A DNA stretch of 43,028 nucleotides from a virus. Positions within the stretch are counted from its first letter, which is position 1, and each line of letters opens with the position of its first letter. The stretch lies in IMG/VR virus record IMGVR_UViG_3300042549_003563, positions 1-43,028 of that record; one strand, written 5' to 3'. The position numbers and the translations under genes are program-made. Below, one piece after another: positions 5,722 to 39,691 of the stretch. The notes below the pieces were generated by a model, which had not been told where the DNA came from, searched no databases, and saw only the letters and a program-made list of their open reading frames with translations.

Positions 5722-7305
5722 TTACCCCAGTATCGGAATCATTGGCATACCGCCGGAAATAGCTCCCAGCATTTGCTGTGCAACGTCCAGTGACTTCTGT
5801 TGCAGGTCCTTCTGCTCTTTCGCAATCTTAATCGCTTCGGCAGATCCTGACAGCCGCTCCTGCAACTTCTGAAACATTGCAGACGCCGAACCTCGCTCAA
5901 TCGTCTGAGCTTGCATTGCCGCTTGCCCGGCTGCCGCCGCTACCTGACCTCCAGCTGCGCCGCCCATGAAATCAACAGGGGCGAATCCTTCCCCCGGAGC
6001 TTTCTTTTCTTCCGGCTTCATTCGCTCAGCTTCTCGCTGTGCACGCACCAGAGCCAGTTCAGCGTTTGCCGCATCAATCACTGACGTTGTCGCTGCTGAA
6101 TTTGTCGGAGCCGTGAACCCTTGGAATTCTTCGAAGGCTCGCATCGTCGGTTCTGGAATCGTCAGCACCTCATCAGACAGCCCCAACTGAAAGGCGATGT
6201 TCTCGCCCAACTGTCGCGACTTCTGGTCCATCTTCGCCCACATGTTTCCGGCTGCGGTTGCGATGTTGTCCATCGCGATTTTGCTGTTTGACGTAATCCA
6301 CGAAAACGCCGCCTGTGCATACTGCGGGATTTCCTGGAACAATGCCGCCCAGACGTTGCCCATGTTTCCAGCAACTGACCCCATTACTACGCCGATGTCT
6401 TGGAAGGCGTCTCCGGTTGCGATGAACCACTCTTCCACTGACTGCAGAATTGACGCGAACGCACCGCCAACACCTTCGACGGCTTTGGTTGCATCAATCG
6501 TCCACGCCAAAAACCGATTCGCGTACGGCAACACCTGCGTTCCCAGTTCAATCGCCAGCATCTCAAGGCTGCTTTGCATCTTGGAAAACATGCCAGCGGC
6601 CGATTCTGCAACTTTGGCATTACGCCCAGCTAAACGACCGCTGCCAGTTGTTAGATCGCTTAACGCCTGTTTGACCATGGCCGCTGTAATCAGGCCTTTT
6701 TCCATGTCTTTCTTTAGGTCTATCATGTTGCGGCCTGTTGTTTCTGCAATAACAGACAGAGGCGAAAACGAGGCGTTTAGTAATTGCAGATTTTCCTGTC
6801 CTGTCAGCCTGCCAGCCTGTTCGACTTGCGATAAGGCATAGGCAAGTCTTTCCAATTTATCAACGGACCCTCCAGCTACTTCGGTCATCATGCCCATCAT
6901 GGCAACAACCTGATCTCCCTCGACTCCTGCGTGCATCATCATCGAAGATATTTTTGCCAGATCCTGCTGCCCGAAAACCGTCTTCAGGTCGATTTCCCGC
7001 AACTGCCCCAGCATGGTGTTTGCTTTGTCGGCTGAACCCAGCAGCACCTCGAATTCCATGCTGGTCTGCTCGGCTGCTGACGCAAGGCTCACCACCTTTG
7101 TGGCCATCGCCGTTATCGCAACGCCAGCAAAGGCACCTTTCAGGCCTGTAAACGCAGATCCAATCGCAGCCAACGCACCGCCGGCTTTTTTTGCGGCAGC
7201 AGTCATGCCATCCATGGCCTTTGCAGCTTTTGCGGCTTCTGAAGTGACCTTGCCCATACCCTCAGGGCTGAAGACTACTTGTGCTTCCTGGACAACTACT
7301 GCCAT
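5722..7305 (-). CDS. Tape measure protein
   Basis: 527 residues. Residues 20-60 are Ala/Gly-rich helical (AAKAAKAMDGMTAAAKKAGG) with a hydrophobic run (GAFAGVAITAMATKVVSLAS), followed by the tape-measure domain pattern around 70-230 (EFEVLLGSADKANTMLGQLR, LPYANRFLAW). The C-terminal half has coiled-coil Gln/Ala stretches. At roughly 0.15 nm per residue this implies a tail of about 80 nm. The ATG overlaps the stop of the frameshifted chaperone by one base (TAATG at 7305). Confidence 0.88.
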   Translation of the reverse strand: MAVVVQEAQVVFSPEGMGKVTSEAAKAAKAMDGMTAAAKKAGGALAAIGSAFTGLKGAFAGVAITAMATKVVSLASAAEQTSMEFEVLLGSADKANTMLGQLREIDLKTVFGQQDLAKISSMMMHAGVEGDQVVAMMGMMTEVAGGSVDKLERLAYALSQVEQAGRLTGQENLQLLNASFSPLSVIAETTGRNMIDLKKDMEKGLITAAMVKQALSDLTTGSGRLAGRNAKVAESAAGMFSKMQSSLEMLAIELGTQVLPYANRFLAWTIDATKAVEGVGGAFASILQSVEEWFIATGDAFQDIGVVMGSVAGNMGNVWAALFQEIPQYAQAAFSWITSNSKIAMDNIATAAGNMWAKMDQKSRQLGENIAFQLGLSDEVLTIPEPTMRAFEEFQGFTAPTNSAATTSVIDAANAELALVRAQREAERMKPEEKKAPGEGFAPVDFMGGAAGGQVAAAAGQAAMQAQTIERGSASAMFQKLQERLSGSAEAIKIAKEQKDLQQKSLDVAQQMLGAISGGMPMIPILG

Positions 7306-7945
7306 TATTTCGCGTCCTGTTTATGCCAGATATCCTCAGGGCACCAACAACCAGAATACACCAGAGCCTGATACATTGTCAGCCGCCCGATTTCTTCAGA
7401 CGTCCAGCCGTACTTTTCAGACAGTCCCCGAAAGATCGTTGCCCATGGAACCGTTCTCCGCGAAGGCAATGTCACTGTGTCGCTTCCGGGGACTCGGAGT
7501 TTCCCAGGATGTCTTTCTCTTCGACCGTGTGCATTGCCCGAACAATGCCCGCAATGTCACCATACCACGCAATGAAATTGCAGCCCAACTGGATACCTTT
7601 TTCGGCGGATAAATTCGGCGGGAACTCGTCTGCGTGGTGAACGCTGAGTGCTCGCCAGATCGACCATGCCAAACCCCGGAAGGACTTGTCAAACCGCTCT
7701 TCGTCGGCCATGGTTGCAATTAATGGACGTGCCGTGATGTCTGCAGCAATCTTGTAGGCTTCTGCCCTGACCGCTCTGTCTGCAATCAGATCCAGTCCCT
7801 GATATGGATTGCCCATTTTCAGCAGCATTGCTTCTTCTTTCGCCGCGTATCCCGCCAGCGTCTGAATCTGCAATTTGTAAACTCGATTGTCTTTTTCCAG
7901 CCGTGCGGTGCGTCCACCACACAAATTGAACAAACCATCCGCCAT
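7305..7945 (-). CDS. Tail assembly chaperone GT fusion (-1 frameshift product)
   Basis: Ribosomes shifting back one base at GGGAAAC (7505-7499) read 149 codons of the zero frame and then 64 codons of the -1 frame, ending at TAA 7307-7305; the total is 213 residues. The extension is clearly protein-like (GLSEKYGWTSEEIGRLTMYQ), with the WTxEEI/LTMYQ pattern seen in gpT-type extensions. It ends one base into the tape-measure start codon, the expected lambda G/GT layout. The fusion should bind tape measure and tail tube during assembly and be absent from the mature virion. Confidence 0.85.
7472..7945 (-). CDS. Tail assembly chaperone, G-like (zero-frame product)
   Basis: 157 residues, lying between the tail tube gene and the tape measure. 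The helical C-terminal part (DKSFRGLAWSIWRALSVHHA) resembles G-type chaperones that coat the tape measure. The N-terminus has LCGGRTARLEKDNRVYKLQI. The final eight codons after the slippery site are read only when no frameshift occurs. Confidence 0.8.
   Translation of the reverse strand: MADGLFNLCGGRTARLEKDNRVYKLQIQTLAGYAAKEEAMLLKMGNPYQGLDLIADRAVRAEAYKIAADITARPLIATMADEERFDKSFRGLAWSIWRALSVHHADEFPPNLSAEKGIQLGCNFIAWYGDIAGIVRAMHTVEEKDILGNSESPEATQ
7499..7505 (-). other. Programmed -1 frameshift slippery site GGGAAAC
   Basis: On the coding strand the zero frame reads CTG GGA AAC, so G GGA AAC fits the X XXY YYZ rule exactly, as in lambda G-T (GGGAAAG). The -1 frame stays open for 64 codons and stops exactly at the tape-measure start. 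Confidence 0.88.
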
Positions 7946-8385: not shown

Positions 8386-8796
8386 TTATGGTTTTGCAAT
8401 ACCCGAATAAACGATGCCCATCTTCAGATTACTGGTGGTGGTAGCCACTCCTAGAACTGTCACAAAGTCGCCGGTCGCCAGATCGGCGTACGGTGCAATC
8501 CCACCAGCGTTGACGCTGCAAACATAAACCTGCCCAATTGTAAATCCCGCGTTGAATGTCAGGTTCCCGCTGACAGCATACTGCAAAGGCTGACCGGCTG
8601 AAGCACCATGCAGGGCAATGCCAACGCTTTGACTCGATGCTAAAACGTCTGCGTCTGTTGGCTTCAGTTTCAGGCTGTCTGTTGCGTCCTGATAAACAGG
8701 CTGCCCGGCTGTCACAGTTGCACCTGCAATGCCCATGACAACGCTTGTCGATGCTGTTTTGAGAACGCTGGCCGCTGTCACCGAAACGTCTGCCAT
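8386..8796 (-). CDS. Beta-rich structural protein between tube and tail terminator
   Basis: 136 residues with valine/glycine/alanine-rich strands (VVMGIAGATVTAGQPVYQD, FTIGQVYVCSVNAGGIAP). Its composition resembles the decoration-type protein at 12011-12418, and both have the GxxVYQ / ATSxS / GxA pattern of trimeric capsid decoration or head-fibre folds, here placed among tail genes. Function uncertain. Confidence 0.6.
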   Translation of the reverse strand: MADVSVTAASVLKTASTSVVMGIAGATVTAGQPVYQDATDSLKLKPTDADVLASSQSVGIALHGASAGQPLQYAVSGNLTFNAGFTIGQVYVCSVNAGGIAPYADLATGDFVTVLGVATTTSNLKMGIVYSGIAKP

Positions 8797-8797
8797 T

Positions 8798-9232
8798 TCA
8801 CACTCCTACGTGATTCATTTCCAGGCTGATTTGAGTTGCCCAGACGCCCGTCTGGTCATCCTGATTTGATTCCACCGGCCCAACTGGCCTGCAGCCTGTG
8901 ATATTCAATCCGGCTCCCTGATAGCTTTTGTCGGACCACGCAGTGATAACCTCTTGTGCCAGATCCTTTGATGCGTCATAACTGATCGAAAGGCAGGTCA
9001 CTTTAACGGAGCTTCTCCAGCCTCGTGCTGAATTGGTTCGCCAGGCTGGTTCGGATGATATCGTCAGCACCACGCAATCATCGAAATAATCGTCTTCGTT
9101 TTCGTCGTCTGTCTGATCTTCGCGTTCCTGGATTACCTCAGTTGCGACCCGATACGAAGGCACGATAGCAGACAGGTTTGCTGTCGCTCCCCACCATTCG
9201 CTTAACGCCTGATCCAGTCCAGTTGCCGCCAT
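8798..9232 (-). CDS. Tail terminator / neck protein (DUF3168-like position)
   Basis: 144 residues. The N-terminus (MAATGLDQALSEWWGATANL) is helical, the middle is very acidic (EREDQTDDENEDDYFDD) and the C-terminus is beta-rich, ending TGVWATQISLEMNHVGV. Small alpha/beta proteins at this place, after the gp10-like gene and before the tube, usually cap the tail. Its start overlaps the upstream stop by one base (TAATG). The assignment is by synteny. Confidence 0.55.
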   Translation of the reverse strand: MAATGLDQALSEWWGATANLSAIVPSYRVATEVIQEREDQTDDENEDDYFDDCVVLTISSEPAWRTNSARGWRSSVKVTCLSISYDASKDLAQEVITAWSDKSYQGAGLNITGCRPVGPVESNQDDQTGVWATQISLEMNHVGV

Positions 9233-9939
9233 TATGTGACCTTCGCTTTTCGCTTCGGTTTTGCTGTCGCCAGTTGCCTTAACTCAGTGCCGATAATCTT
9301 CCCGAGGATGTTCATGTTTCTGTCAATTGTCGGCTTCAAAAACGGCCGTTGTTTGTTGTCTGGCCTGAACTCCCAAAGTGCCATGTACGGGGCAATTTTC
9401 TTGTCAACGAAGACTCTGGATTTTATCTGTTTGCCTTGTCGAAACAACTCCGCTTTGATTGCTGACTGGCCCTTGCCAGTTCTGCGTCTTGGCGATTCTC
9501 CCGGCCTTGACGCCCCCGGATCTTCTGACGTCTCAACAGCAGAAGCACCAACGAGTGAAACATCACCTGTCAACTCTCTTCGCGTCCTCGCTCGTTCTGC
9601 GGCCTTCAGTGCCTTTCGCTGTATCCTTTGTCGCTCCAGTTTCTTTTTCTTGCGTGCCTGAATTGCCTTGCGTGCACCTCGCAGTGCTTTACTTGTGTTT
9701 CTCTTGCTGGCCTTCGTGAATCGCTTAACAGCCCTGACGGTCTTCTTCGTTCTTCTCGCCAGTGTTCGCCTGGCTTTGTTCGTGCTGACTCTTGTTTGCC
9801 GGATCGTTTTTCGTGTCGTCTTTGCGATTCGCCTTGCCGCTTTTCGTCGACCTGACGACAACTTCTTCGACGCTTTCCGCACGCTCTTAACGGCTTTCGC
9901 CCTGAGCTTTGAATATGCGGTTTTCTTGCGGCGTTTCAT
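9232..9939 (-). CDS. HK97 gp10-like connector C-terminal half with histone-like N-terminus
   Basis: 235 residues. The first 120 hold 53 Lys/Arg and only two acidic residues, a composition like histone H1 or bacterial Hc1 proteins (RRKAARRIAKTTRKTIRQTR). From about 155 the sequence turns into the end of an HK97 gp10-type tail-completion protein (KSRVFVDKKIAPYMALWEFR, NKQRPFLKPTIDRNMN). The gene before it (10124-9936) looks like the missing gp10 N-terminal half, joined by an ATGA overlap. The basic segment may contact packaged DNA at the neck or simply be an expanded linker. Confidence 0.7.
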   Translation of the reverse strand: MKRRKKTAYSKLRAKAVKSVRKASKKLSSGRRKAARRIAKTTRKTIRQTRVSTNKARRTLARRTKKTVRAVKRFTKASKRNTSKALRGARKAIQARKKKKLERQRIQRKALKAAERARTRRELTGDVSLVGASAVETSEDPGASRPGESPRRRTGKGQSAIKAELFRQGKQIKSRVFVDKKIAPYMALWEFRPDNKQRPFLKPTIDRNMNILGKIIGTELRQLATAKPKRKAKVT

Positions 9940-10124
9940 GCCTCGTCCGGCTCACTTCGCTGACGTCTTCGGCTCGGTTGTTTTCTTTTCACGTACTGCC
10001 GACCCACAGCCATTTTTGCCAACTCTTTGACCTTGAGCGCTGCCTGCGTTAATGCCTCAGCCGTGGCTTTGTCGATGCCGTCCAATAGCTCTTTCGTTCT
10101 GTCTTTTCGCTTAAGCTTAAACAT
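9936..10124 (-). CDS. HK97 gp10-like N-terminal half (separate small gene)
   Basis: 62 residues from the ATG at 10124; a GTG at 10130 is an alternative. KDRTKELLDGIDKATAEALT followed by QAALKVKELAKMAVGRQY matches the N-terminal helix of gp10-type tail-completion proteins, which normally continues into the beta domain encoded here by the next gene. It then becomes basic (VKRKQPSRRRQRSEPDEA) and stops at ATGA, restarting as the 235-residue protein. It overlaps the upstream gene by 8 bases. Confidence 0.6.
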   Translation of the reverse strand: MFKLKRKDRTKELLDGIDKATAEALTQAALKVKELAKMAVGRQYVKRKQPSRRRQRSEPDEA

Positions 10125-10734
10125 CAGCACGCCTCAAAATCAGGTACGGCAAATCGACCCGATTCAGTGAAGTTTCCAGCCTGTCAATGTAGAAACTTTC
10201 GCCTGCCGTATTGGTGACAGTATCCGCTGAACCGATATCGGCAACTGACTCCAGCATCAGGTAAAACTCGCCTTCCATTTTACGACGCTTCCCGTCTTCC
10301 CTGACCACAATTTCGGCAGACGACTGAAACCATTTGCCACGAACGCCCAGCGTATGTTCAGGCGGTCCCGCGGTGGCTGCCCCCTTCTTTGATACCATCC
10401 AACGCCGTCGGCTGAATCTGACCATGTCATCCAGCTGCAGGTGGCAATATGACCGCTGCAAAGCGGTCTCTGCCGGATCGGTGTACATGACTCGCCACGT
10501 TGTCGTGGTGTTATTGCGTTTGACCTGAAACAGGTTGCCAGTTGCAACTGATGTCGTTGCAATTGGCGTCCAGATATGTGCACGCCGGATCGTCTGTCTG
10601 TCTGGCTGTTCAATCAGACGCACCACCCGATCCAGCGTAGCACCGGCGGAATTCGTCCAGCGTGCCCGTTCACCGAGTTCATCGGTGTTCAGGATTGCAC
10701 AAACGTCTTCCGCCATCTGGTCTCTCAGGCTCAT
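10117..10734 (-). CDS. Head-tail connector / stopper-like protein
   Basis: 205 residues. MSLRDQMAEDVCAILNTDEL starts a helical region, followed by beta-rich sequence (QVKRNNTTTTWRVMYTDPAE) and an ILRR end. It lies between capsid and tail genes where adaptor and stopper proteins are encoded. No diagnostic motif. Coupled to the upstream gene by ATGA (10734-10731). Confidence 0.55.
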   Translation of the reverse strand: MSLRDQMAEDVCAILNTDELGERARWTNSAGATLDRVVRLIEQPDRQTIRRAHIWTPIATTSVATGNLFQVKRNNTTTTWRVMYTDPAETALQRSYCHLQLDDMVRFSRRRWMVSKKGAATAGPPEHTLGVRGKWFQSSAEIVVREDGKRRKMEGEFYLMLESVADIGSADTVTNTAGESFYIDRLETSLNRVDLPYLILRRADV

Positions 10735-12010: not shown

Positions 12011-12418
12011 TCAGCCCAGAACGTCGATCATGACGTCCATCTGAGTTGCCGAAACGTAATTCACTGCCCGGCCAATCCGGGAAGCACTCGTCGATGTTGC
12101 AGTGATCGTAAAATTGTCAGTTGCATAAATCAGGTCACCGGCAATTGCCTGCGTGAAACTTGACCCAGTCAACCGGAACACGCCCTCACTGTACAACTCA
12201 CAAACCTTGTCACCAGCCGACCCTCCGGAGTTGTCACATTGCTGGTAGACGACTCCCGCAAAGGCATTCGCCCCGGCGTTGTCGTCGTTTGTAATAAACC
12301 CCGTCGAAGCATCCCAGAACGCCAGTGTGTTCTGATAAAGATTGACCGCAGCCGCCTTACACGCAATGATGTCGCCTGCGTCCTGCATCAACACAACTTG
12401 ATTCGCTGTTACTGCCAT
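12011..12418 (-). CDS. Capsid decoration-like protein (DUF2190-like)
   Basis: 135 residues from the ATG at 12418, behind GAGGAG. The N-terminus (MAVTANQVVLMQDAGDIIAC) and the repeated beta pattern (NAFAGVVYQQCDNSGGSAGD, ASRIGRAVNYVSATQMDVMI) resemble DUF2190/decoration proteins encoded between protease and capsid genes. It probably binds the outside of the capsid. Synteny and composition based. Confidence 0.6.
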   Translation of the reverse strand: MAVTANQVVLMQDAGDIIACKAAAVNLYQNTLAFWDASTGFITNDDNAGANAFAGVVYQQCDNSGGSAGDKVCELYSEGVFRLTGSSFTQAIAGDLIYATDNFTITATSTSASRIGRAVNYVSATQMDVMIDVLG

Positions 12419-12431
12419 GGTCCAACTCTCC

Positions 12432-12836
12432 TCACTTCTGCAAAGGCTCAAGGCCATCATCAATCCGACGGCTTCGAATGTACTGCTCTTCTGACACGCT
12501 CAGAAGACTCCTGTGCTGATTGAATTCCGCTTTGTATTTCGCATTCGGATCGGCTGGTGGTTCTGGTGCAGAATCCAGAACGCTTCCGCGCTTGCCCATC
12601 AGATCCTTCAGTGCCGCCTGAGTCTCTGCAACGCTGAAACCCGAATCGACAAAAGCGTTAAATTTCTCCCCCGCTCCAGCCAGGTCGCATAGTGCCCTGA
12701 TCTTCTTGCAGCGGTCACGCTCAATTGCCGCCAGATCGGCTGTAGGTGTTGCGACAATCACCGGCTCAACCACAGCACTCAAATCAGCCACCGGCGTTTC
12801 TGGGACCTCGCTCGGTTGTTCAGTTTCTCCAGGCAT
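12432..12836 (-). CDS. Nested scaffold protein (internal start in protease gene)
   Basis: An in-frame ATG at 12836 (codon 239 of the protease gene) is preceded by AAAGGA six bases upstream, a ribosome-binding site as good as those of full genes. The product (134 aa, MPGETEQPSEVPETP...) is acidic, Pro/Glu-rich and then helical, as expected for a scaffold. The layout parallels lambda C/Nu3 and Mu I/Z, where the scaffold is the C-terminal part of the protease gene. Confidence 0.65.
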   Translation of the reverse strand: MPGETEQPSEVPETPVADLSAVVEPVIVATPTADLAAIERDRCKKIRALCDLAGAGEKFNAFVDSGFSVAETQAALKDLMGKRGSVLDSAPEPPADPNAKYKAEFNQHRSLLSVSEEQYIRSRRIDDGLEPLQK

Positions 12837-13550
12837 GGCCTGTCCTTTACTCGAAAAATATCGGTCCAGAAACGCTGAGATACGACCTCGGACCACATCA
12901 GGTTCCGCATCTCCAAAATATGAACTCAGCAAGGCTGTTGCCTGTGCTGGCAGGTCTCGCAAATCTGCATTTAACGAAAAAAATCCGCCCCGTGTTGCTG
13001 CTGGTTCGTCGACAACGTCACCGGCCTTGATTGCAGCAAACCGCATTGGCCACATCGACCGCTCTTCTGTCGACTTTCCAGAATTTAACTTCTCGAATTG
13101 TGCCAAGTCGCCACGGTCCAACTTTGTCGCCAGGCTCACGCCAAATGATTCAGGATCGCTTTCAGCCAGATCCATCACATAGTTACCCAAGTCTCCTTGG
13201 GGACTCGTAAACGCAGCGTCTGCAATGTGTAGGTCGCCCCGAAGCGTATCGCCTTCGATTCGAACGTTCTGCCATCGACCCAAATAACTGCCCATGCCAT
13301 CGGCTGACATATTCGGGTGAGTGAATCGAGCTTTCAGCCCGTTCCGGCTTTGGTTTGCAAACTGATACGCCTGATCCAGTGTTTTTGCGTCAACGGTCCA
13401 TGGGCGTGCCTCAGCGTCATTCAGGTCGCCAACCTGCATCAGTGACGCGCCGAAAATCACGTTGGCTTTTCGGTCTACCCTGACAGGTCGCTCGGCCGTT
13501 GTATCTGTCCGGAAAAATCCCGGATCGGTTGCCGTTTTAAGCTGGTGCAT
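12432..13550 (-). CDS. Prohead protease-scaffold protein
   Basis: 372 residues. The N-terminal domain has KARFTHPNMS (His about residue 77) and SDPESFGVSLA (Ser about 137), the His/Ser pair expected of a head-maturation protease, with YLGRWQNVRIEGDTLRGDLH between. Residues 239-372 are the scaffold, which may also be made on its own. It lies between portal and capsid as in Mu and lambda. Its GTG/ATG region overlaps the portal end by 14 bases. Confidence 0.8.
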   Translation of the reverse strand: MHQLKTATDPGFFRTDTTAERPVRVDRKANVIFGASLMQVGDLNDAEARPWTVDAKTLDQAYQFANQSRNGLKARFTHPNMSADGMGSYLGRWQNVRIEGDTLRGDLHIADAAFTSPQGDLGNYVMDLAESDPESFGVSLATKLDRGDLAQFEKLNSGKSTEERSMWPMRFAAIKAGDVVDEPAATRGGFFSLNADLRDLPAQATALLSSYFGDAEPDVVRGRISAFLDRYFSSKGQAMPGETEQPSEVPETPVADLSAVVEPVIVATPTADLAAIERDRCKKIRALCDLAGAGEKFNAFVDSGFSVAETQAALKDLMGKRGSVLDSAPEPPADPNAKYKAEFNQHRSLLSVSEEQYIRSRRIDDGLEPLQK

Positions 13551-32854: not shown

Positions 32855-35377
32855 TTATTCGAAAGATACTTCATCGGCAGCCATCAGGTCAAACAATGTC
32901 GGTGCCGTCAACTCCCGTTCCGCACGCTCGCAGAATGACACGCCGAATTTCCAGTAGTCCGGATTCAATTCAATTCCCCAGCCTTTACGCTTCATTTTAA
33001 TCGCGACATACGGCGTGGAATGAACGCCGCCGAACGGATCAAGAATCACGTCGCCGGGATTGCTATATCGCTCAATCAGCCTCTCAATCACGTCCAACTG
33101 CAACGGGCAGACGTGGTTCTCTGTTGTCTTTCGACTGAGTTCCGTGTTCAACGTTTTGATTCGCACGATGTCAGTCCAGATGTCTGGATTATTGCTGACA
33201 GGTGCGAATAACATCATCGACGCCGGAAGATGTCCATGTTGTTCAACGGACTCAGTGAACGCAACATGATCATGGTAGTTGTAGTTGTTTTCCTTCGCAT
33301 ACCTTCGCCACCAATGATAGATATCCGAAGTCCCCATTCCGGCCAACATCTTCGGCTGAACCAACTCATTGCCATCGCTACGCCAGATCCCGCTCGCGTG
33401 AATCTGCCACCGGCTTCGGCTGTACTCCGCTTTGTCTTTGGTCACAGGATCGGGACCAGAAGCCGTCTGGTTCGGTGACATGCTCGGTTCCCACTTGCGA
33501 AACAGCAAAACGAACTCAGTCGAACCACAGCCCATCTTCGTGCTGTCTTTGCCGTTCTCCGTGTGTCCCAGCCGATAGGTCTGCGCGTTCTCCCGGACCA
33601 CATCGGTATCAATCACAATCCTGCCCATATAAACAAAACCGCCTTTACGAAATGCCGCAACGGTCTTATCTGAGAACTCATTCACGCTGTACATTGCGTG
33701 ACCTGTCATCGTGCCGTATTGGATACGATCCTTCGTATGGATTGCCGCAACTCGCCCCGGCTTCAGGACTCGGTACAACTGCGGAACAAGAAAATCGAAC
33801 TGGGCAAAGAATCCATCATCGCCCTGATTATGCCCAAAGTCGTTGTAGTTCGGCGAATACTCGTAATGATCGGAAAACGGAATACTGGTCACAATTTCGT
33901 CAACGCAATCATCGGCCCACGATGTCAATTCCGTCACGCAATCATTATTGATTGCTCTGTACAGCTTACCGCTGACCTCGTGTCGTGGAACGCCCATGCC
34001 TCTCTCGAATTTCATTTTCAATGCCTCACCTGAAAGCCCATGTTCCCGAATAATTGAACGCATCTGCGTAGCCAGCTCCTCATGCCGTCGCCACTTCTGT
34101 TCCATAATCATCTTCGTGTCATACTGTGTGTCAGCGTACACAATATGGATTTCCACCGTCTTCTTTTGCATGAACCTGTGAATGCGGTGAACAGCCTGAA
34201 TGAAATCGTTAAACTTATCCGTTGGCCCAATGAAAATAGCCTTATTGCAATGCCTCTGGAAATTACAACCGCTGCCCAACAACTGCGGTTTGCTGCTCAG
34301 AATCTGCAATCGACCATCGGCGAAATCTCCGACGATTTCTTCACGCACTTCCAGGTCCTGAGTCCCGTACACAGCCCGTGAATCTGGGAATGACTTTTGA
34401 ATTTCATGCCGTTCGGATTCCAGATAGTGCCAGATAATCCAGTGATCGTCTGGCGACTGTTCCACAATCTGAACAGCTTTCGCAATGCGTGTGTCAGCGG
34501 TCTTTCGCCGCTGCTTTGAAACGTGCTTAATGCCGCCGCCAGGCTTCTCGAACAACAGAGGCTGCCCAAAGCTATCGACAAACGCTCCAGGCTTTCCCTG
34601 ATCGCCTTCGACCTCATGCCAGTAGACCTGCATCTCCGGCATATCATAGCCAGCATCGTCGTACCCCAGATCGCTCGGAGAGTTCACGAAGACTGCCCAC
34701 GATGCAACCCACAGCCAAAACCGCTGCTCTTCGTGCGGATACAGTTGCAGGTTCCCGGCCTTCTTAGAATCCCTCTGGAAGAATCGCGTCATCGCCTGCC
34801 CGCGGTCCATCACGCCTAAAAAATCGGCGTAGTTAATCAACTCAATAAACTCATTCGGTGAAGGTGTAGCGGTCGCAACAAAACGATACTGTACTTTGCG
34901 AAACAACATAGCAAATTGCTGTGTCGTCTTTGTGCCGTAAGATCGAAGACAGCTCGCTTCGTCCAGCGTCGCCCCAGCGAACTGTTTTGGATCGATGTCG
35001 CCATCCCTTACCCGCTCATAATTTGTGATTATAAATGGCGTGTCAGCCTCCGCAACCTCCGCATCTGTCCGGCAGTATTTGACTACCATCCCCATGCGTG
35101 GCCCGTCGTTACGGGTGAATTCCTGCCGAACTCCCAGCGGTGCAATGATTAGCACCTTGTCACCAGTGTGCTCGTGAATCCACTTGCAAATCTGCAATTG
35201 CTGGACCGTCTTGCCCAGCCCAAACGATTCGAACAACGCCGCTCGGCCTTTGCGGATCGCCCATTGCACGCAATCAATCTGATGCGGCAAAAACCAGTCA
35301 GGACAATCTGACTGCGGAACAAATCCATCCATTACCACCGGCGGCATTTTAGACCGCAAAAAATCCTGATAATCCAC
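32855..35377 (-). CDS. SNF2-like helicase fused to DNA methyltransferase
   Basis: 840 residues, GTG start behind GAGAGGGGG. Residues 25-445 are an SF2/SNF2-like helicase: SFGLGKT (51-57), DEAS (139-142), ATATPSP (168-173), QAVHRIHRF (394-402). Residues 470-830 are an amino-methyltransferase: motif IV TSIPFSDHYEY at 497-507 in place of the usual SPPY/DPPY, motif I LDPFGG at 779-784, and ENHVCPLQLDVIERL (753-767). Likely methylates adenine or cytosine amino groups as it translocates, protecting phage DNA. No nuclease domain is visible. Confidence 0.88.
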   Translation of the reverse strand: MDYQDFLRSKMPPVVMDGFVPQSDCPDWFLPHQIDCVQWAIRKGRAALFESFGLGKTVQQLQICKWIHEHTGDKVLIIAPLGVRQEFTRNDGPRMGMVVKYCRTDAEVAEADTPFIITNYERVRDGDIDPKQFAGATLDEASCLRSYGTKTTQQFAMLFRKVQYRFVATATPSPNEFIELINYADFLGVMDRGQAMTRFFQRDSKKAGNLQLYPHEEQRFWLWVASWAVFVNSPSDLGYDDAGYDMPEMQVYWHEVEGDQGKPGAFVDSFGQPLLFEKPGGGIKHVSKQRRKTADTRIAKAVQIVEQSPDDHWIIWHYLESERHEIQKSFPDSRAVYGTQDLEVREEIVGDFADGRLQILSSKPQLLGSGCNFQRHCNKAIFIGPTDKFNDFIQAVHRIHRFMQKKTVEIHIVYADTQYDTKMIMEQKWRRHEELATQMRSIIREHGLSGEALKMKFERGMGVPRHEVSGKLYRAINNDCVTELTSWADDCVDEIVTSIPFSDHYEYSPNYNDFGHNQGDDGFFAQFDFLVPQLYRVLKPGRVAAIHTKDRIQYGTMTGHAMYSVNEFSDKTVAAFRKGGFVYMGRIVIDTDVVRENAQTYRLGHTENGKDSTKMGCGSTEFVLLFRKWEPSMSPNQTASGPDPVTKDKAEYSRSRWQIHASGIWRSDGNELVQPKMLAGMGTSDIYHWWRRYAKENNYNYHDHVAFTESVEQHGHLPASMMLFAPVSNNPDIWTDIVRIKTLNTELSRKTTENHVCPLQLDVIERLIERYSNPGDVILDPFGGVHSTPYVAIKMKRKGWGIELNPDYWKFGVSFCERAERELTAPTLFDLMAADEVSFE

Positions 35378-37911: not shown

Positions 37912-39615
37912 TTAAAACGGAACCCAATCCTCATCCACTTCCGCCGATCCTGTCACCTCGACAGGCTCCATAGTCTCTGGAATCTCGTCGTCAAATTCAA
38001 CCCGGACAATCTTCTGCCACTTGCCCTCCGGCACCACCCATAGCCGCGAAGCCTGACGACAGGCTCCGCTGTGCATCATCAGCAACGCCCTGACCACGGT
38101 ATCCGGTACCGGTTGCAGGCTTCGACATTGCCACCAGCCGACAGCTTTCTGCCGTGCGAAACCCTCGTGCTCAAAACACACCCACTCACGTACAACGGTT
38201 GCCGTCAAATTACCTTCGCCACGACTTTCCGGATAGCAGTTGTAGGTGATGCAGAGACTCGGTATCGCGTCAGGATCTCGCTTCTTTTCGTGGAGGTGCC
38301 AATCCACCGAAGTCACCACGTACAACTCCGGCTCCGGCTTGCCGGTGATCTTGCTTTCGGTGTCTGCTGTGCCCTCGTGATTGACGGGGAACGCCCAGCC
38401 GCACTCAGGGCAAAACGCGGACCGTGCCGCACACTCAATCTGACACTTATCACAGACCTTCGTGCCGCCCGCTCCATCACGCTCAATCGTCTCGCCTTTT
38501 GTCCAACCCTTGCCCCCGGTATACCGGCCGTAATCTGGTGAATCCAGACTTCCGTGCCTCGCGATATTGCCGCCGAAGTCCAACACCAAACAATCTTCCT
38601 TGCCTTCTGCTTTCCTCAATCCTCGCCCGACAATTTGAGCGAACAGACCTGGCGACATTGTCGCCCGAAGAACAGCCAACGCATCAATCCGAGGTGCATC
38701 AAAACCAGTCGTTAGCACATCGACGTTTACGCACCACCTCAAGGCCCCGTTCCTGAAGTCAGACAGAATCCGGCTGCGTGTCATCGTGTCCGTTTCGCCG
38801 GTGACGACTTCGACCGGCTCGCCCGTCATCGCCTGCAATGTCGCCTGAACCTGTTCTGCGTGGGCAATGCCAGCACAGAAAACCAGAATTGAACGACGGC
38901 CCGCACATGCCGAAACGATCTCGCCACAAGCCGCCAGGACATTGCTATCACCGGCAAACACCCGTTCCATTTCCGCTGCTACAAACTCACCGCCGCGAAT
39001 CGAAACCCGGCTTGTGTCAACCGTGCCGTCAGCGGGTTTGTTCGTCAGCGCGGACAGATACCCTTCGCTGATCAGAGTCCCCGTCATCGACTCGTAGCAG
39101 ATGCCGCTAAACAGCTTATCCTTTCCAGCAATGCTGCCCTCTCCCGTGCGGAACGGAGTAGCCGTCAAGCCCACCGCAAACAGCCGTTGATTGACTCGTC
39201 GCAGGTCTGCCAGGAACTGGCCGTACATGCTTTCCGCATCGCCTGAAATCAGGTGGGCTTCGTCGATCAGAATCAGCCCTCTCGCGCCGAAGTCCAGAGC
39301 CTTTCGATAGACGGATTGAATCCCGGCACAAATGACGGCAGAATCGAAGTCATGCCGACGAAGGCCAGCCGAATTCAGCCCGACCTGCACGCCTGCCATC
39401 GCCGCTATCTTCTCAGCGTTTTGAACGAGTAGTTCTTTCCGGTGTGCTAAGCACAAAACCCGCTGATTGAACTCCAACGCCTGCCGAATCAGCATGCCAA
39501 TTACGACCGACTTGCCCGCTCCTGTCGGCAGTACGATCAGCGGATTCCCTCGCCCGCTGGCCATCCATTCCCACGCCGCATGATTCGCAGCGTCCTGGTA
39601 ATATCTCGCCTGCAC
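37912..39615 (-). CDS. DEAD/DEAH helicase, RadD-like, with zinc ribbon
   Basis: 567 residues from a GTG at 39615, chosen because AAAGGGA lies 5 bases upstream and the frame before it runs through a terminator hairpin. Motifs: PTGAGKS (30-36), DEAH (118-121), GLTATPFR (149-156), TGFDAPR (303-309), QIVGRGLR (327-334). A zinc ribbon follows, CDKC...CPEC (388-405), as in RadD/YejH. Likely remodels branched or stalled DNA during replication/recombination. Confidence 0.87.
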   Translation of the reverse strand: MQARYYQDAANHAAWEWMASGRGNPLIVLPTGAGKSVVIGMLIRQALEFNQRVLCLAHRKELLVQNAEKIAAMAGVQVGLNSAGLRRHDFDSAVICAGIQSVYRKALDFGARGLILIDEAHLISGDAESMYGQFLADLRRVNQRLFAVGLTATPFRTGEGSIAGKDKLFSGICYESMTGTLISEGYLSALTNKPADGTVDTSRVSIRGGEFVAAEMERVFAGDSNVLAACGEIVSACAGRRSILVFCAGIAHAEQVQATLQAMTGEPVEVVTGETDTMTRSRILSDFRNGALRWCVNVDVLTTGFDAPRIDALAVLRATMSPGLFAQIVGRGLRKAEGKEDCLVLDFGGNIARHGSLDSPDYGRYTGGKGWTKGETIERDGAGGTKVCDKCQIECAARSAFCPECGWAFPVNHEGTADTESKITGKPEPELYVVTSVDWHLHEKKRDPDAIPSLCITYNCYPESRGEGNLTATVVREWVCFEHEGFARQKAVGWWQCRSLQPVPDTVVRALLMMHSGACRQASRLWVVPEGKWQKIVRVEFDDEIPETMEPVEVTGSAEVDEDWVPF

Positions 39616-39632
39616 CTGTATCCCTTTCCACG

Positions 39633-39666
39633 AAAAACAACCCGGCAGTGTGTGACCACTGCCGGG
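39633..39666 (-). terminator. Intrinsic terminator after the DUF669 gene
   Basis: CCCGGCAGTG (39666-39657) pairs perfectly with CACTGCCGGG (39650-39641), loop GTCACA, followed by TTGTTTTT (39640-39633). It closes the CsrA-RusA-Sak4-DUF669 operon; its T-run ends 17 bases before the helicase GTG. Confidence 0.9.
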
Positions 39667-39691
39667 CATGATGTCGAAATCCAAAACAAAA

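Follow-up and report, generated by a model that had tools for sequence, protein, structure and literature searches.

A probable two-chain tail completion protein with a basic arm in a group of uncultured viruses

The uncultured virus record IMGVR_UViG_3300042549_003563, whose 43,028 bases form the window analyzed here, encodes a real and conserved variant of the tail completion protein (TCP) that is made of two chains and carries a strongly basic arm. Our main reading, to which we give a probability of about 0.55, is that the 62-residue and 235-residue products of two overlapping genes form one two-chain tail completion (Neck1) protein, and that its basic hairpin holds the DNA end in the neck. 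The features on which this reading is built are the following, all on the minus strand.

8798..9232, minus: 144-residue acidic protein in the tail-terminator position (position and synteny)
9068..9127, minus: acidic stretch, residues 36-55 of the 144-residue protein (11 Asp/Glu in 20 residues)
9232..9939, minus: large gene, 235 residues, basic arm and TCP core (ORF, phrog_5 match, relatives)
9235..9516, minus: TCP core, residues 142-235 (20-relative alignment, hhalign to the gp10 family, phrog_5)
9469..9480, minus: TGKG loop, residues 154-157 (conserved motif; mapped to 80alpha by motif)
9580..9939, minus: basic arm, residues 1-120 of the 235-residue protein (composition, AlphaFold2, substitution pattern)
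9936..9939, minus: ATGA overlap of the small and large genes (sequence)
9936..10124, minus: small gene, 62 residues from its ATG, probable N-terminal helix of the TCP (ORF)
10117..10734, minus: 205-residue gene, probable head-tail joining protein (directly precedes the pair in relatives)

Both ORFs are present as the sequence-only reading had described them, a 62-residue and a 235-residue gene sharing the four bases at 9936-9939, and the small gene has an alternative GTG start two codons upstream of its ATG. Because dN/dS across relatives is low both in the small gene (~0.04-0.21) and in the basic region (~0.04-0.30), the two ORFs are real genes under purifying selection. The pair sits at the gene-order site of tail completion proteins (TCP/Ne1; lambda gpZ, HK97 gp10, SPP1 gp16.1, 80alpha gp51). 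Along the minus strand, the head part runs from a terminase of the lambda gpA type through a lambda-family portal, the protein at 12432-13550 and a cement-like protein to a Mu gpT-like capsid, which is followed by genes for proteins of 76 and 205 residues, the 62- and 235-residue pair and the acidic 144-residue protein, and then by a 136-residue protein, a tail-tube-like protein and the tape measure protein. The portal and capsid share only ~30-35% identity with known phages. The 205-residue protein gave only a weak Pfam match (Phage_attach, E 0.11), and for the 144-residue protein, which has a net charge of -14, no firm family match was found, its candidate role as terminator resting on gene position. 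The acidic stretch of the latter is kept in all 18 relatives, with 7-11 Asp/Glu each.

Several other features of the window were recorded alongside the pair. Two proteins resemble Phage_cement_2 (E 3e-5 and 0.003): one at 12011-12463 on the minus strand adjoins the capsid gene, and a second at 8386-8796 on the same strand lies between the genes of the acidic 144-residue protein and the tail tube, an odd site for a cement protein. Two minus-strand ORFs between the tail tube and tape measure genes (7305-7475 and 7472-7945) overlap by 4 nt and occupy the place of the lambda G/GT tail chaperones. A 508-residue ORF adjoining the tail genes (1352-2878, minus) matches a putative rhamnosyl transferase and a methyltransferase, an 840-residue protein (32855-35377, minus) joins an SNF2-type helicase region to an N6/N4 DNA methylase, and a separate ResIII-type helicase lies at 37912-39684. 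The tRNA and Rfam search of the window gave no match.

Relatives were gathered by scanning viral contigs with the 235-residue protein, its alignment and the 205-residue protein, and after the removal of duplicates, 60 distinct pairs from uncultured viruses were compared. Genome-contig scans with the alignments of the large gene and the 205-residue gene found no relative, and named phages yielded no relative of either the large or the 205-residue protein. An alignment of 20 relatives revealed many invariant positions in the C-terminal 94 residues of the large protein, centered on the motifs GASxPGEPPxxRTGKGxxSI, VDKKIAPYMAxWEF and RPFLKPA; the window carries GASRPGExPxxRTGKG, APYMALWEFR and RPFLKP, followed by a C-terminal helix. 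The invariant Y185 in this alignment corresponds by motif to Y78 of 80alpha. In a search of the window's record, phrog_5 ('tail completion or Neck1') matched the core of the large protein at 9271-9648 (E 2.3e-5), and it did so at E 1.7e-10 in the record of L022, the relative whose arm is shortest, with no other match of this profile in either record. The L022 protein compared with the whole profile library again gave phrog_5 (E 8.3e-7), which was not reported when the large protein of the window was scanned alone against the whole PHROGs library, and Pfam and PHROGs scans of each window gene singly gave no significant match.

A gp10-family profile built from HK97 and ten diverse relatives was aligned by hhalign to the small-chain helix joined to the core, with a probability of 90 and a score of 44.3, whereas the best of 100 column-shuffled controls of the same helix and core scored 19.9. 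Shuffling the core columns only reduced the score to ~20. Taken by itself, 80alpha gp51 gave an alignment too weak for use. The gene position fits as well, lying between the head-tail joining gene and the terminator and tail tube genes in the window as in the relatives. The proposal that the C-terminal half is of the gp10 type is supported, and tail completion (Neck1) protein is a better name for it than 'connector'. The match of either half to PF04883 that had been expected was found neither in the window nor in relatives: at the Pfam gathering score, HK97-gp10_like had no match in 19 records or 20 members, and the large protein is not a PF04883 member by this test. The single polypeptide usual in PF04883, a trait that is not strictly defining, is replaced by two chains in 60 of 60 pairs. 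In the AlphaFold2 model the core, with pLDDT ~60-70, has a pair of beta hairpins before its C-terminal helix, and the linker in front of the core has pLDDT <50. Foldseek (PDB, BFVD) and VIA-align searches returned no significant or specific structural match, with 'Type I neck' and 'HK97 gp10 family' models appearing at weak scores; this lack of a structural match does not indicate that the fold is new.

The first 120 residues of the large protein contain exactly 53 Lys/Arg and two acidic residues, as had been counted from the sequence, and no other stretch on the coding strand of the window is as basic. The best 80-residue segment of this arm holds 36 Lys/Arg against 21 in the next unrelated ORF on that strand, an overlapping alternative frame with 27 being left aside in this ranking. 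Across 20 relatives the arm measures 50-153 residues, with 41-50% Lys/Arg and 1-4 acidic residues. When Lys/Arg codons differing by one non-synonymous nucleotide were counted, Lys-Arg exchanges numbered 124 against ~37 expected and changes to Glu 0 against 21.6 expected, counts that pool related, non-independent pairs and give a direction rather than a p-value. Charge is conserved in the arm more than sequence, and the substitution pattern indicates that its positive charge is kept by selection. AlphaFold2 predicted a long two-helix hairpin (helices 8-61 and 65-119) followed by a poorly defined linker, and the spacing of hydrophobic residues along the arm follows the helical angle more closely than in shuffles. 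A poorly ordered linker of ~34 residues separates the end of the arm from the TG loop (T154-G157). In the predicted arrangement the hairpin is an insert, with the N-terminal helix before it and, after it, the loop with which 80alpha gp51 caps the DNA end.

The closest structural guide to the function of the pair is 80alpha, in which a gp51 monomer lies inside the neck and caps the DNA end with its loop; phosphates are held by R87 and by N55 of the TGN motif (T53-G54-N55), Y78 and F81 stack against the terminal base pair, and the DNA-facing surface is positive (PMC11661146). The gp51 protein (PDB 9mu2 chain P) resembles the window pair in the place of its gene before the terminator gene and in its succession of a helix, a beta-hairpin with TG loop, a Y..xEF motif and a C-terminal helix, but it is a single 115-residue chain with a net charge of -4 and no basic arm, and a direct sequence comparison of the two proteins shows very weak similarity. 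The HK97 gp10 family (PF04883) and phrog_5 share with the pair the TGxL/TGKG, Y..xEF and PFxxPA motifs as well as the gene order; unlike that family, the pair has two chains, a basic insert of ~110 residues and no GT after EF. Lambda gpZ belongs to the same role class, and the window likewise has a gpA-type terminase. The AlphaFold model of gpZ is reported to have an additional domain at the apex of its fold (PMC11661146), and this is a beta domain, whereas the window has a basic helical hairpin as its insert and a chain cut in two. SPP1 gp16.1, also a tail completion protein, promotes the joining of head and tail and infectivity, both it and lambda gpZ being needed for full infectivity (SPP1: PMC11099176); it differs from the pair as a single 141-residue chain for which no basic arm is reported.

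On these likenesses, the small chain would give the N-terminal helix, and the large chain the beta sheet, the DNA-facing loop and the C-terminal helix, preceded by the basic helical hairpin. The two chains would assemble in the neck or upper tail, where the core would cap the packaged DNA end as gp51 of 80alpha does and the hairpin would lie along the DNA backbone, holding the end until ejection. Because the T5 tail completion protein p143 is placed at the tail tip (PMC11784142), so that the location of these proteins differs between phages, we only infer the neck location of the two-chain protein. A DNA-end-holding protein with an added basic clamp is the most economical reading, and DNA holding is the likely and favored function of the arm. 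More tentatively, the hairpin may be kept mainly for its charge and clamp the DNA end in the neck channel, arm length and charge tuning the strength of retention across this phage family. The earlier suggestion that the arm condenses DNA or plugs the portal would belong among such conjectures.

The main rival accepts a split TCP and has the arm seat, with no grip on DNA, against the acidic lining of the terminator ring or the tail tube. In 80alpha, a positively charged tape measure protein seats against acidic walls (PMC11661146), while the tape measure protein of the window is itself acidic (net -12), and the adjacent 144-residue protein, with its charge and its retained acidic stretch, offers a possible partner for the arm. 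An arm that keeps charge more than sequence would suit this seating as well. However, the terminators of 80alpha and HK97 are also acidic and yet their TCPs have no basic arm, and the insertion point here precedes the DNA-facing loop; seating alone is the less likely reading.

That the small protein is the N-terminal helix of the TCP, as the sequence-only reading proposed, is probable from alignment with modest support. Homologues of the small ORF occur in 60 distinct pairs, always directly upstream of the large gene, and their pattern L..L......AL..AA....A agrees with gp10 N-termini. In a joined structure model of one relative (L045), in which an in-frame TGA was read as Trp as a modelling device with no readthrough claimed, the elements followed the same order as in the window and the small chain formed a further long helix. 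When only the small part was shuffled, the hhalign score averaged 36.8 instead of 44.3 and 3 of 200 shuffles reached the real value, and the small protein alone gave no significant profile match (hhalign P 0.023). It is the difference between this outcome and that of the core-only shuffle that makes the core secure and the small chain probable. The last two results would also be expected if the proteins were separate and only the large one TCP-like, a reading we consider improbable, given that the large protein alone lacks the N-terminal helix common to TCPs, that the small gene keeps its place directly upstream and that its pattern agrees with gp10.

Less probable still is a TCP-like pair whose arm acts inside the cell. 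It would be a histone-like or RNA-binding tail, either condensing or recruiting phage DNA or entering the new host together with the injected DNA and working there. The arm is rich in Lys, Arg, Ala and Thr with almost no acidic residues, resembling nucleic-acid-condensing tails, and its variable length (50-153 residues) suits non-specific binding. It is, however, always joined to a structural core within the neck gene block, and its predicted long helices with hydrophobic periodicity are not those of a disordered tail. Searches of the basic region for histone-like and other named DNA-binding families found none above the family cut-off, the matches being sub-threshold and of a composition type, such as DBINO (E 0.028, 15.2 bits against a cut-off of 31).

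The split itself is old. A separate small and large ORF was found in 60 of 60 distinct pairs, and the survey for a fused version found none among them; no locus that has the 205-residue gene and enough sequence is without the pair. The large gene lies in frame +1 relative to the small one in 48 pairs, +2 in eight and 0 in four, with an in-frame TGA between the genes in the last four, and the genes overlap by 4-38 nt or, in some pairs, are separated by gaps of up to 74 nt. Because the split is universal, frames, overlaps and gaps vary, and both genes are under purifying selection, we conclude that it is an old and maintained property of this phage group, and the proposed division into two genes with a basic insert is conserved in all relatives. 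A fixed ratio of the two products through ATGA reinitiation did not hold up: the exact ATGA overlap is limited to the closest relatives of the window, others overlapping by 17-38 nt or having gaps, and since such overlaps are also common at several junctions of the same operon there is no special reason to expect such a ratio. The conserved relative frame and overlap of a programmed frameshift pair such as lambda G/GT were not found. Programmed frameshifting, sequencing error and gene decay were rejected, and a single gene broken by frameshift or sequencing, or fused through frameshifting or stop readthrough, is a very remote prospect despite the +1 frame of most pairs and the four in-frame TGA codons, because none of the 60 pairs is joined, three different relative frames occur among them, their junctions are overlaps or gaps, and both genes are under purifying selection. 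In one relative (L046, 5615-6451; also L125, contig IMGVR_UViG_3300027487_000008), the large gene is itself broken between the basic arm and the core, probably by an assembly gap or mutation, while it is intact in the near-identical contig L050.

Annotation that relies on PF04883 overlooks this gene in one group of uncultured viruses, which is explained by its two-chain, basic-armed form, and a literature search among open-licence papers found none describing a split or lysine-rich tail completion protein. Only recently, with 80alpha gp51, has a structure shown how the packaged DNA end is held between portal and tail, and the location of TCPs is disputed. A natural family that has two chains and a charge-selected arm ahead of the DNA-facing loop makes the question of DNA-end holding testable.
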